The notes under the pieces are model-generated. The model was not told the DNA's origin and did not search any database. It saw only the letters and a list, made by a program, of their open reading frames with translations. Positions 50,332 through 54,464 of a stretch of 64,000 nt of DNA are shown piece by piece; position 1 is the first letter of the stretch, and every line of letters starts with the position of its first letter. The stretch is from Daejeonella oryzae DSM 19973. GTDB lineage: Bacteria > Bacteroidota > Bacteroidia > Sphingobacteriales > Sphingobacteriaceae. Location: assembly GCF_000422945.1 (NCBI RefSeq), contig NZ_AUHA01000003.1, positions 372,001-436,000 on the forward strand, read 5' to 3'. The translations under genes and the position numbers were made by a program.

Positions 50332-51570
50332 TTAATGAGTATGGATTAATTCCTGAATCTGCTCTTCTATAAGTACATGGCTTTCATCTTCAGGAATTTC
50401 AGCAATAAAGGCACCATTTTCCCTTATAAATTCAACATTCCTGATCAGATTTTCCAGCGATATTTTTCCTATTATGAACTGGAAATTTGCAGAGTAAAAT
50501 CTTTCTGAAATAGTTTCAAATTCTAAATTATTCAGCAAACTTTCATCAGTATATCTCAGGTAAACATTCAGAATCAAATCATTGCTATGATTTACCCTGT
50601 TTTTTTGATGATACTTTTTATATTCATAACGATACTGATACCGAAGAGCGGCAATATCTGATAATACTGCTGCGCCGGTTGGATGTCCGCCGGCACCTTT
50701 ACCAAAGAAAAATTGCTGATCTGCAAAAGCAGCCTGCACAATTACTCCATTGTATTCATTTTCTACATTATATAAAAAGTTATCTGACCGGATCATTTTT
50801 GGGAGCACCAGCAAAACAGATGTTTCATCACTGTTTTTCCGGGCCGAAGCAATCAGCTTAATTTTATAGTTTTTCTCTCTTGCATATTGAAGATCATGCG
50901 GGGATAAACTTTGTATACCAATGTTTAAGACCTCTGCCGGGTTAATAAAGGTTCCATAGGCATGAGCTGCTGCAATTACAAGTTTAAACTTTGGATCAAA
51001 ACCACCTACATCCAGTGTGGCATCAGTTTCTGCAAATCCTAAATCTTGTGCTTGCTTAAGCGCAGTATCATAATCTAAACCTTCATTAAATATTTTAGAT
51101 AGAATATAATTTGATGATCCATTAAAAATCCCGCTTATGGAATACAATAATTCATTATCATAATATTCTTCAAGATTTCTGATTATAGGAATACTGCCAC
51201 ATACAGCTCCTTCATATAGCAAAGAAGTTCCGTGTTGCTGCTGTATTTCAACCAGTTCTTTCAAATGCTCGGCTATCATTTTTTTATTAGCCGAAACTAC
51301 ATTTTTGCCGCTTTTTAATGCTCGTGATACAATTACAAAAGCTGTATCAGCATCGTTTATCAGTTCTACAATCGTATTAATGTCCGGATTCAGTAAAACC
51401 TCATCAATATTTGTAGTGAAATAATCTGAAGGAAGGGATCTTTTTTTTGAAGCGTCTTTAATAACTATTTTTTTGAGATCAATATTCAGGTCCTTGCTGC
51501 TGATAATATCATAAAGTCCCTGGCCGACAACGCCGAATCCAACTAATCCAATTGTTAATTTCTTATCCAT
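50332..51570 (-). CDS. hom: Homoserine dehydrogenase
   Basis: 412 residues, stand-alone (not fused to aspartokinase). NAD(P)-binding GFGVVGQGLYDII near 11-23; catalytic and homoserine-binding core NGSSNYILSKIFNEGLDY and DATLDVGGFDPKFKLVIAA. Reduces aspartate semialdehyde to homoserine. The C-terminal ~95 residues are less conserved and do not clearly match ACT. Last gene of the metY-metX-hom unit, 6 bases from the stop of metX. Confidence 0.93.
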   Translation of the reverse strand: MDKKLTIGLVGFGVVGQGLYDIISSKDLNIDLKKIVIKDASKKRSLPSDYFTTNIDEVLLNPDINTIVELINDADTAFVIVSRALKSGKNVVSANKKMIAEHLKELVEIQQQHGTSLLYEGAVCGSIPIIRNLEEYYDNELLYSISGIFNGSSNYILSKIFNEGLDYDTALKQAQDLGFAETDATLDVGGFDPKFKLVIAAAHAYGTFINPAEVLNIGIQSLSPHDLQYAREKNYKIKLIASARKNSDETSVLLVLPKMIRSDNFLYNVENEYNGVIVQAAFADQQFFFGKGAGGHPTGAAVLSDIAALRYQYRYEYKKYHQKNRVNHSNDLILNVYLRYTDESLLNNLEFETISERFYSANFQFIIGKISLENLIRNVEFIRENGAFIAEIPEDESHVLIEEQIQELIHTH

Positions 51571-51576
51571 TTATAT

Positions 51577-52629
51577 TTAATTGTGCAGGTTTAACTCAGG
51601 CTTTCCTATGGCTGAGTCTTTTAAAAATTTGCTGATGATTTTTGTTAATAATTCCGTTTCGATCAGAAAACCATCGTGTCCGTACAATGAATCTATTAGT
51701 TCAAATTGTGCATGAGGAATATGTTCAGAGAGAAAAATCTGCTCCTCAACGGGAAAAAGTACGTCTGATGTAATCCCCACTATCAGCGTACGGGCTTTTA
51801 TTAAACTTAAAGCATTTTCAACCGTTCTGCGGTTGCGCCCAACATGATGACTATCCATCGTTTTACTTAAGTAATAATAGCTGAACGCATTGAACCGGTT
51901 TACAAGTTTTTCACCCTGATAATTCTGGTAAGAAGCAGCTTTAAAATCGCTGGTTTTCTCGTGTGATTCTTCATTTTGGGTGAACTTATAAGTTTGATAA
52001 TTTCGGTAGGATAGAAGCGCAATGCTACGGGCCGCCTTTAATCCCTTGTTTCCACCATCAGGCGACATCGAATAGAACGTGCGGTCGGCAGTTATTGCCA
52101 TGCGCTGACTTTCGTTAAATGCAATTCCCCAGGAAGAATGAACCGAATTAGTAGCAAGTAAAACCAGATTTTTAATTTTTTCAGGTTCCATTATAGACCA
52201 TTCTAAAGCTTGTTGACCGCCCAGAGATCCACCAATGAGTAAACTGATTTCTTCAATATCCAGATGGTTTGCCAAAAGCTGATGAGCCGATACCAGATCA
52301 CGTACAGTTAATTCGGGAAAGGAAAGGTAGAATGGCAATCCGGTTTCTTTGTTCAGGCTTAAAGGATTACTGCTTCCGTAATGAGATGACAATATATTTG
52401 CGCAAACAATGAAATGTTCATCCGGATTAAATAAATTATTGTAGCCAAAAAGTCCTTTCCACCAATCAAATACGTCAGAATTTGCCGTTAATGCATGACA
52501 TACCCAAATAACATTGCTTTTTTGCTGATTTAATTTCCCGTAGGTATGAAAAGCAATTTGCAATTCCGGCAGTTTTTTACCGCTCTCTAAAACGAATGGA
52601 TCTTTATAATTGAAAACCTGATATCCCAT
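51577..52629 (-). CDS. metX: Homoserine O-acetyltransferase
   Basis: 350 residues, alpha/beta-hydrolase fold. Nucleophile elbow GGSLGGQQ with Ser135; the DVLFPVEEQ and GHDGFL segments provide the Asp/His of the triad. Activates homoserine with acetyl-CoA (or succinyl-CoA; sequence alone cannot decide) for direct sulfhydrylation by MetY. 28 bases after metY. Confidence 0.9.
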   Translation of the reverse strand: MGYQVFNYKDPFVLESGKKLPELQIAFHTYGKLNQQKSNVIWVCHALTANSDVFDWWKGLFGYNNLFNPDEHFIVCANILSSHYGSSNPLSLNKETGLPFYLSFPELTVRDLVSAHQLLANHLDIEEISLLIGGSLGGQQALEWSIMEPEKIKNLVLLATNSVHSSWGIAFNESQRMAITADRTFYSMSPDGGNKGLKAARSIALLSYRNYQTYKFTQNEESHEKTSDFKAASYQNYQGEKLVNRFNAFSYYYLSKTMDSHHVGRNRRTVENALSLIKARTLIVGITSDVLFPVEEQIFLSEHIPHAQFELIDSLYGHDGFLIETELLTKIISKFLKDSAIGKPELNLHN

Positions 52630-52657: not shown

Positions 52658-54007
<1,350 letters not shown>

Positions 54008-54043
54008 TTAAATAGTATGTTGTAAAGCTGTATAGGAAAGAGA

Positions 54044-54057
54044 TCTGCGAAAGCAGA
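54044..54057 (-). other. Short hairpin in the metY leader
   Basis: TCTGC-TTTC-GCAGA on the minus strand, immediately downstream of the larger attenuator-like hairpin. It may stack on that structure. Confidence 0.4.
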
Positions 54058-54102
54058 AGCAGGATTATAATTCTGAAAAAAAAGAATTACGATAAACCTG
54101 CT
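54058..54102 (-). promoter_or_regulatory. Attenuator-like hairpin after the Cys-rich leader ORF
   Basis: On the minus strand AGCAGG...CCTGCT encloses GTAATTCT/AGAATTAT around a T-rich loop; the hairpin begins at the stop codon of the leader ORF. No T tract follows, so it is not a standard terminator; it could work by transcription pausing, Rho or leader folding. Interpretation as an attenuator is inference. Confidence 0.45.
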
Positions 54103-54215
54103 TAACAAATGCAACAACACATATACTGCATTGGAGTATAAGGCTTGCTGAAAATAGAGGAAATGGAAAAGTTCTCTGAAGAGAAAAAATCGAAGAAATA
54201 AATTTTTCTTTGCAT
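54102..54215 (-). CDS. Putative Cys-rich leader peptide of the met operon (37 aa)
   Basis: Reading from ATG 54215: 37 codons ending Met-Cys-Cys-Cys-Ile-Cys and TAA. Codons 33-37 hold four cysteines (TGT TGT TGC ATT TGT). It lies 10 bases past the P1 helix of the SAM riboswitch and its stop coincides with the start of the hairpin at 54058-54102. Shorter starts at M29 and M32 are also possible. Leader peptides rich in Cys are a recognised way to sense cysteine charging in other bacteria. No Shine-Dalgarno sequence, which is normal for this phylum. Whether it is translated is unknown; a 37-codon frame can occur by chance, though the terminal cluster of Cys is striking. Confidence 0.45.
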   Translation of the reverse strand: MQRKIYFFDFFSSENFSISSIFSKPYTPMQYMCCCIC

Positions 54216-54225
54216 GGCTGTAAAT

Positions 54226-54334
54226 ATTTATAGTTTCCGGTAATTACCGGACAGGAATTGGCACCTTCCCCGAAACCGATCGGGGGGTTGTCAGCGGGTC
54301 ATAGAGCCTGATCTCTCGCCACTTCTGTATAAAT
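54226..54334 (-). promoter_or_regulatory. SAM-I-type (S-box) riboswitch
   Basis: On the minus strand the P1 helix is ATTTATA (54334-54328) with TATAAAT (54232-54226). Between them stand GAGATCAGGCTC-ATGACCC, GCTGACAACC, then GGAAGGTGCCAATTCCTG and the P4-like palindrome CCGGTAATTACCGG, the core features of S-box RNA (the GGTGCCAATTCCTG segment is diagnostic). It lies about 240 bases before metY and directly before the Cys-rich ORF. SAM binding would repress the methionine unit; whether by transcription or translation is not visible. Confidence 0.88.
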
Positions 54335-54464
54335 CAAAACCTTTACGATTATTGATGACAGATTGGTATTGCTACCAAATAATATTTCAAATATATGTTG
54401 AAAAGAATCTAATTTCCAAATTAAATATTTAATAATTGAAAATTGTAGGTTAAGATGACGTATT

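Follow-up and report, generated by a model that had tools for sequence, protein, structure and literature searches.

The leader of the metY-metX-hom operon of Daejeonella oryzae DSM 19973 places a SAM riboswitch, a short cysteine-rich ORF and a hairpin one after another, which raises the question of whether a single leader can report both SAM and cysteine to one operon. The window, that is, the whole 64,000-nt stretch of DNA analysed, had been described in the initial annotation as holding an S-box aptamer closed by a perfect 7-bp P1, a 37-codon ORF 10 nt past the aptamer, a two-tier hairpin from its stop codon and metY-metX-hom downstream. All of these elements were recovered on the minus strand:

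54225..54335, minus strand: SAM-I (S-box) aptamer with an all-A-U P1 (RF00162, 71.7 bits, E 8.3e-15)
54102..54215, minus strand: leader ORF of 37 codons ending Met-Cys-Cys-Cys-Ile-Cys-stop (translation and conservation in relatives)
54058..54102, minus strand: H2, a two-tier hairpin starting at the last base of the stop codon (folding; counterparts in relatives)
54044..54057, minus strand: H3, a small hairpin immediately 3' of H2, TCTGC/GCAGA (folding; the Pedobacter-group counterpart covaries)
53984..54043, minus strand: A-rich, G-poor 60 nt up to metY (leader composition; C-G skew versus controls)
52658..53983, minus strand: metY, O-acetylhomoserine sulfhydrylase type (TIGR01326, 684.8 bits, cut-off 495.1; PF01053)
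51577..52629, minus strand: metX, homoserine O-acetyltransferase family (TIGR01392, 340.9 bits, best match, below the cut-off of 500)
50332..51570, minus strand: hom, homoserine dehydrogenase (NF004976, 314.3 bits, cut-off 205)

The aptamer matched RF00162 over its full length (111 nt) and above the covariance-model threshold (71.7 bits versus a gathering score of 44.4), and the seven perfect A-U pairs of P1 (ATTTATA/TATAAAT) were read from the sequence. The leader ORF begins with an ATG at 54215, 10 nt 3' of the aptamer match, and encodes MQRKIYFFDFFSSENFSISSIFSKPYTPMQYMCCCIC-stop, the C-terminus being MQYMCCCIC-stop. The lower tier of H2 is AGCAGG/CCTGCT and the upper tier GTAATTCT/AGAATTAT; none of 200 shuffles was as stable as the 86 nt at 54120-54035, which fold with a z-score of -4.95. 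The three genes were named by NCBIfam, with MetY and Hom exceeding the subfamily cut-off and MetX not. The run ATGTGYTGYTGY occurs five times in the genome of the window and closes a short ORF at metY only. A cystathionine gamma-synthase/lyase-like gene lies upstream of the aptamer in the same direction (55580-54465). Since MetY is of the OAH/OAS sulfhydrylase type (TIGR01326) and has this gene as its neighbor, the homocysteine made at metYX-hom could feed cysteine.

An alignment of metY leaders across relatives had been proposed as the check on this arrangement. Of 589 metY relatives in named records, the 80 best were used, so that close families dominate. Their aptamers (L031-L110) were called with Rfam; a plain SAM-core sequence expression misses some aptamers. 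An aptamer was present upstream of metY in 70 of these 80 and absent in 8, and two contigs were too short. All 70 aptamer-bearing leaders had a short ATG ORF 3-13 nt after the aptamer (at least 12 codons were required and a start was permitted up to 60 nt past the aptamer). These ORFs are 13-51 codons long, and 53/70 encode at least three Cys within the last 12 codons. Addition of 13 metY leaders from the genus of the window gave an enlarged set of 83 leaders, of which 80 are distinct (three duplicates). The last 12 codons of this set contain 327 Cys compared with 64.7 in dinucleotide shuffles, an excess of about fivefold that peaks in the last eight codons. The other frames contain 120 (frame +1, attributable to composition) and 17 (frame +2). 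At least three Cys in the last 12 codons were seen in 65/83 leaders, a codon run for a pathway amino acid near the stop such as is expected of an amino-acid leader-peptide attenuator; the Cys cluster, whose absence from close relatives the initial annotation had named as evidence against its reading, is kept in most of those sampled. Met codons are likewise enriched in the terminal Cys cluster. The common endings are CICMCCCC in Mucilaginibacter, ICMCCCIR in Pedobacter, YCCMCMNLNCCC in the genus of the window and GCCCCCNFSG in Adhaeribacter.

Eight of the 83 leaders (L073, L077, L081, L095, L099, L102, L105 and L108) have fewer than two Cys in the last 12 codons, and they include five of the seven Sphingobacterium isolates and one of the two Spirosoma leaders. 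All seven Sphingobacterium isolates (L072, L077, L081, L091, L095, L102 and L105) retain the ORF, which ends in Arg-Met-Arg-stop and holds 0-3 Cys; in six of the seven, fewer than three lie in the last 12 codons. This ending is located inside the nearly invariant CACGAATGCGNTAGTCGTC, in which all four letters occur at the third position of the final Arg codon, a coding-like pattern that would carry another sense. A MAG labelled Sphingobacterium (L034) has the Cys ending, but shares an identical leader ORF with the genus of the window. The leader of L080, labelled Flavobacteriaceae, groups with Pedobacter. The two Spirosoma ORFs (L099 and L106) have 15 and 13 codons and end in CMPARAY and CMPAGAY, and their last codons fold as a GC hairpin. 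At L040, a metY locus without aptamer, a 28-codon ORF ending KGCCWL lies 287 nt before metY.

The position of the ORF distinguishes these switches from others of the same genus. Twenty genomes of the genus were sampled (that of the window and 19 more); all have RF00162, and 15/20 have it more than once. Thirty of the loci were fetched, 13 at metY and 15 at a metH-like gene (start motif). None of the 15 metH-like leaders has an ORF of at least 12 codons within 25 nt of the aptamer, and 10-codon ORFs occur in two of them. The 14 positions of P1 contain on average 0.33 G/C in the 70 ORF-type leaders; the mean is 4.0 for 15 further switches from the genus of the window, 14 of which are upstream of a metH-like gene. 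The commonest P1 of the ORF-type switches is GATTTATA/TATAAAT, nearly all A-U, and P1 ends within what must be the initiation region of the leader ORF.

We hold with moderate confidence that the metY-metX-hom leader is a two-input device, in which SAM gates translation of the leader ORF and a ribosome slowed at Cys codons controls Rho-dependent termination. The operon probably measures both its product (SAM) and the sulfur supply, since the SAM switch is directly followed by a Cys-rich ORF that most of the sampled relatives keep. From the anatomy and coding signature observed here, we infer SAM gating, a response to Cys charging, the direction of control, the use of Rho and some role for H2 and H3. 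At high SAM, the SAM-bound aptamer would keep P1 closed within a few nucleotides of the leader ATG, blocking translation; at low SAM, P1 would open and the leader ORF would be translated. The evolutionary evidence that this ORF is translated as a leader peptide is strong. The terminal Cys codons, perhaps together with the interspersed Met codons, may slow the ribosome when Cys-tRNA is short. Where that ribosome stands with respect to the hairpins and the C-rich, G-poor stretch would then decide whether Rho stops transcription before metY. Most likely, the leader would be OFF at high SAM, untranslated and with its C-rich RNA open to Rho, and ON when SAM is low and a ribosome waits on the Cys codons, keeping the RNA and its hairpins permissive to polymerase. 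A weak point of this model is that H2 could form with ribosome stalling and equally without translation. The dual SAM and cysteine sensing suggested initially is upheld in part. The coding-like ORF is conserved in a constant place behind the aptamer, its Cys cluster is mostly kept and the hairpins recur; on the other side stand the Cys-poor leaders, the enrichment of Met codons and a post-stop hairpin that is no terminator.

A simple stem-plus-T-run scan for the U-run terminator that classical attenuators pair with a competing antiterminator detected a terminator-like hairpin in 2/80 leaders, and an intrinsic terminator after the leader ORF was rejected. A rho gene is present. C exceeds G between the stop codon and metY in 80/80 leaders versus 63/118 control upstream regions. 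The mean C-G skew is 0.099 in the 80 leaders versus 0.007 in the 118 controls (Mann-Whitney 3.5e-15, the sequences being related), and it is 0.028 in the 15 metH-like leaders, 12 of them positive. This skew is no more than a hint of Rho, and the related leaders are not independent.

The lack of a terminator-like hairpin in 78/80 leaders also suits translational control by the same leader peptide, in which a ribosome on the Cys codons would alter folding or reinitiation and so tune metY translation. Mycobacterial Cys uORFs are cited as translation attenuators (PMC13236596), and one report describes a uORF under riboswitch control on whose translation the following gene depends (PMC11260477). 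However, the metY initiation region is predicted to be 0.66 unpaired on average and less than 0.5 unpaired in only 4/80 leaders; hairpins that sequester the metY start, tried as a candidate, are unsupported by this folding. Moreover, the distance from stop to metY is 70-160 nt in 68/70 leaders (23 and 208 nt in the other two), which is long for reinitiation. We consider control at the level of metY translation possible but rather unlikely.

A hairpin after the ORF, which the initial annotation had expected to be conserved, was found in nearly all leaders: a helix of at least five pairs starts between -6 and +20 of the stop codon in 79/80. Post-stop segments, folded from -6, gave a mean z of -1.9 against mononucleotide shuffles and were below -1.5 in 53/80. 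In 24 Pedobacter-group leaders, five of the six H3 pairs show changes on both sides. Both-side changes in the structure of this group number 35 cells versus 14.2 in shuffled alignments, and all 35 are in H3. Two of five whole-structure measures in this alignment were not above shuffles (both-side pairs, 446/500; further pair types, 452/500), and the remaining three beat all 500 shuffles. H2 occurs as CTTCC...GGAAG in 24/24 Pedobacter-group leaders and is nearly invariant; the figure of 85.0% obtained for it is an underestimate, as some alignment rows are shifted by one column. In 14 of the 18 Mucilaginibacter-group leaders, 85.4% of H2 cells are paired and covariation does not rise above shuffles (88/500), so that H2 in this group is a conserved helix and not a covariation-proven one. 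A hairpin of the Cys codons, H1, was rejected as a universal element, with two pairing registers in the Pedobacter group.

Alternatively, the constraint could be on RNA structure and not on a peptide, the Cys codons being a by-product of conserved hairpins. The covariation of H3 fits this explanation. Cys codons of the Pedobacter group also pair with each other in an RNA hairpin, so that part of their conservation could be at the RNA level. However, H1 has no both-side changes in the register counted in that group, and Cys recurs across clades despite differing nucleotides and differing hairpins. The codon-level pattern likewise argues against it. The initial annotation had called for codon-level conservation and feared frameshifts; indels keep the frame in 19/21 cases inside the ORF versus 16/123 between the stop and metY (Fisher 2.7e-12). 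Like the indels, pN/pS was counted in 11 clusters of close relatives picked by hand, which cover 45 of the 80 distinct ORFs; over the whole ORF it is 0.58 in frame versus 0.89 and 0.77 out of frame, and the last 15 codons give 0.46 versus 1.10 and 0.82. In clusters E and I, amino-acid changes are not clearly depleted (ratios 2.13 and 0.90). As selection on the leader peptide is moderate and the compared pairs share ancestry, the coding figures are indicative only. Taken together, the indels and pN/pS, by which short translated ORFs are recognized, provide strong evolutionary evidence that the leader ORF looks translated. A purely structural origin of the Cys codons is improbable.

Cys-ended leaders are also found without an aptamer. 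A scan for ATGTGYTGYTGYNNNTRR in 201 genomes of the family gave matches in 86/201, by a pattern that also accepts TGG, and many matches yield just a five-codon frame. At other operons, ORFs of 13-38 codons ending in MCCC and one further codon, in each case lacking a SAM core within the preceding 250 nt, are located 49-229 nt before the downstream gene:

Cys ORF before AhpC/TSA-like genes: L130, L138, L142/L213, L154/L214
Cys ORF before TonB receptor genes: L111, L129/L159/L215, L132, L155/L212, L158/L211
Cys ORF before a serine carboxypeptidase-like (S10 peptidase) gene: L137/L216, L140

The downstream genes were confirmed by Pfam at L130, L211, L212, L213, L214 and L216, and the remainder were named by eye. 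Since the loci were chosen by motif, they demonstrate reuse and not its rate; they form a possible cysteine-leader regulon.

The genes downstream of these leaders bear on the idea that the Cys cluster of the nascent or released peptide serves as a metal-binding site or a sensor of thiol redox, in the manner of CruR. CruR is described, in the portion of the source available, as a copper-sensing DUF2946 protein of 145 residues with CXXC and a C-terminal RAPP (PMC9426467). As far as that text goes, it shares with the present leaders a Cys-containing uORF and Rho-dependent termination, the latter being our proposal here, and TonB receptor and AhpC/TSA genes are types that also follow CruR. However, the peptides here have 13-51 residues, no RAPP was seen on reading the ORF list of the 70 leaders, and CruR has 45 residues between CXXC and RAPP in the same text. 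At the extreme C-terminus of such short peptides, the Cys would not yet have left the ribosome. The genes downstream of the leader studied here make methionine. We give little credence to this explanation. That an ordinary S-box leader simply carries a chance ORF is scarcely credible: although short ORFs arise by chance and are absent from many S-box leaders of the phylum, the presence of the ORF in 70/70 leaders, its near-constant spacing, the Cys excess and the coding signature stand against it, and the indel pattern inside the ORF compared with downstream contradicts it.

Several further elements were noted around these leaders. The palindrome GGTAGCRATACC lies upstream of the aptamer, near the likely transcript start, in 19/70 metY leaders, with TTT preceding it in 18 of those 19; at this frequency it was rejected as a general element. 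CTATAGA-like near-palindromes were seen by eye at the likely promoter upstream of the Cys leaders L130, L132, L136, L138 and L140 and 59 nt before the riboswitch-less metY at L043; they are perhaps the operator of a sulfur regulator. A cobalamin riboswitch lies beside one metY leader on the opposite strand (L061:2236-2434, minus strand), and Flavo-1 RNAs occur near two metY loci (L035:4321-4398; L084:7044-7122, minus strand).

RF00162 was found in 208/247 genomes sampled over the phylum Bacteroidota. Twenty class-level leaders were fetched, of which five, as judged by eye, precede metY-like genes (L199, L200, L202, L204 and L208), and none of the 20 had a Cys-ended ORF; L208 has a 30-codon ORF without Cys 9 nt after the aptamer. 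A terminator hairpin with a U-run was seen by eye in L194, L195, L196, L207 and L210, before another PLP-enzyme gene. No Cys ORF was seen in the 28 leaders judged by eye among 30 further ones (L161-L190), most of them before metY-like genes; L182 (no core) and L169 (wrong cut) were left out. Among the leaders sampled, a Cys ORF stands where the classical platform would be in hosts that we take to be Sphingobacteriaceae and some Cytophagales. Whether this amounts to a widespread two-input sulfur gate is in our judgment evenly balanced. In such a gate, the SAM-I riboswitch would have the beginning of a cysteine-sensing leader peptide as its expression platform, a single RNA would combine shortage of the product with sulfur amino-acid charging for metYX-hom, and the Cys module would be reused alone at other genes of the family.

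Classical S-box leaders use an intrinsic terminator as the platform. The full-length RF00162 match is common to both, but here a leader ORF replaces the terminator. In attenuators of the tnaC and trpL type, the ribosome on a leader peptide decides termination; the present leader is alike in this principle, but has a SAM gate added, and no terminator/antiterminator pair was found. A mycobacterial Cys-responsive attenuator with a leaderless uORF was reportedly described by Canestrari in 2020, whereas here a 111-nt aptamer precedes the ORF. Predictions of Cys-run leader peptides exist for cys operons and cbs of Actinobacteria, with terminators absent and Rho suggested (PMC1262725). As described there, these leaders resemble ours in a short ORF, a Cys run near the stop, sulfur genes downstream and no conserved terminator. 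They differ in phylum, and here the ORF lies behind a SAM-I riboswitch in a methionine operon, with Met codons mixed in and hairpins after the stop. In M. tuberculosis, the Mbox riboswitch acts via a uORF with Rho-dependent termination (PMC12810186) and the B12 riboswitch acts through a uORF (PMC11260477). Here too, the aptamer would govern translation of a small upstream ORF, but the ligand and riboswitch class are different, and the available portions of these papers do not present the uORFs as amino-acid sensors. Bacteroidota leader peptides are mentioned in general terms, as candidates only, in the passages available from two sources (PMC9723704, PMC7366714). No combination of a SAM-I riboswitch with a Cys leader peptide appeared among the titles and abstract openings listed in a literature search that included few subscription papers, nor did any of them describe a SAM riboswitch with a leader peptide in Bacteroidota. 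Cys leader peptides and riboswitch-controlled uORFs have each been described on their own in Actinobacteria, and the combination is new as far as we found.

Sphingobacterium, in which Cys has been lost naturally, offers a ready comparison. If the proposed reading is true, a single leader would serve one operon by reading first a metabolite through its aptamer and then an amino acid through the ribosome; amino-acid leader-peptide control in Bacteroidota would also stand on firmer comparative ground.
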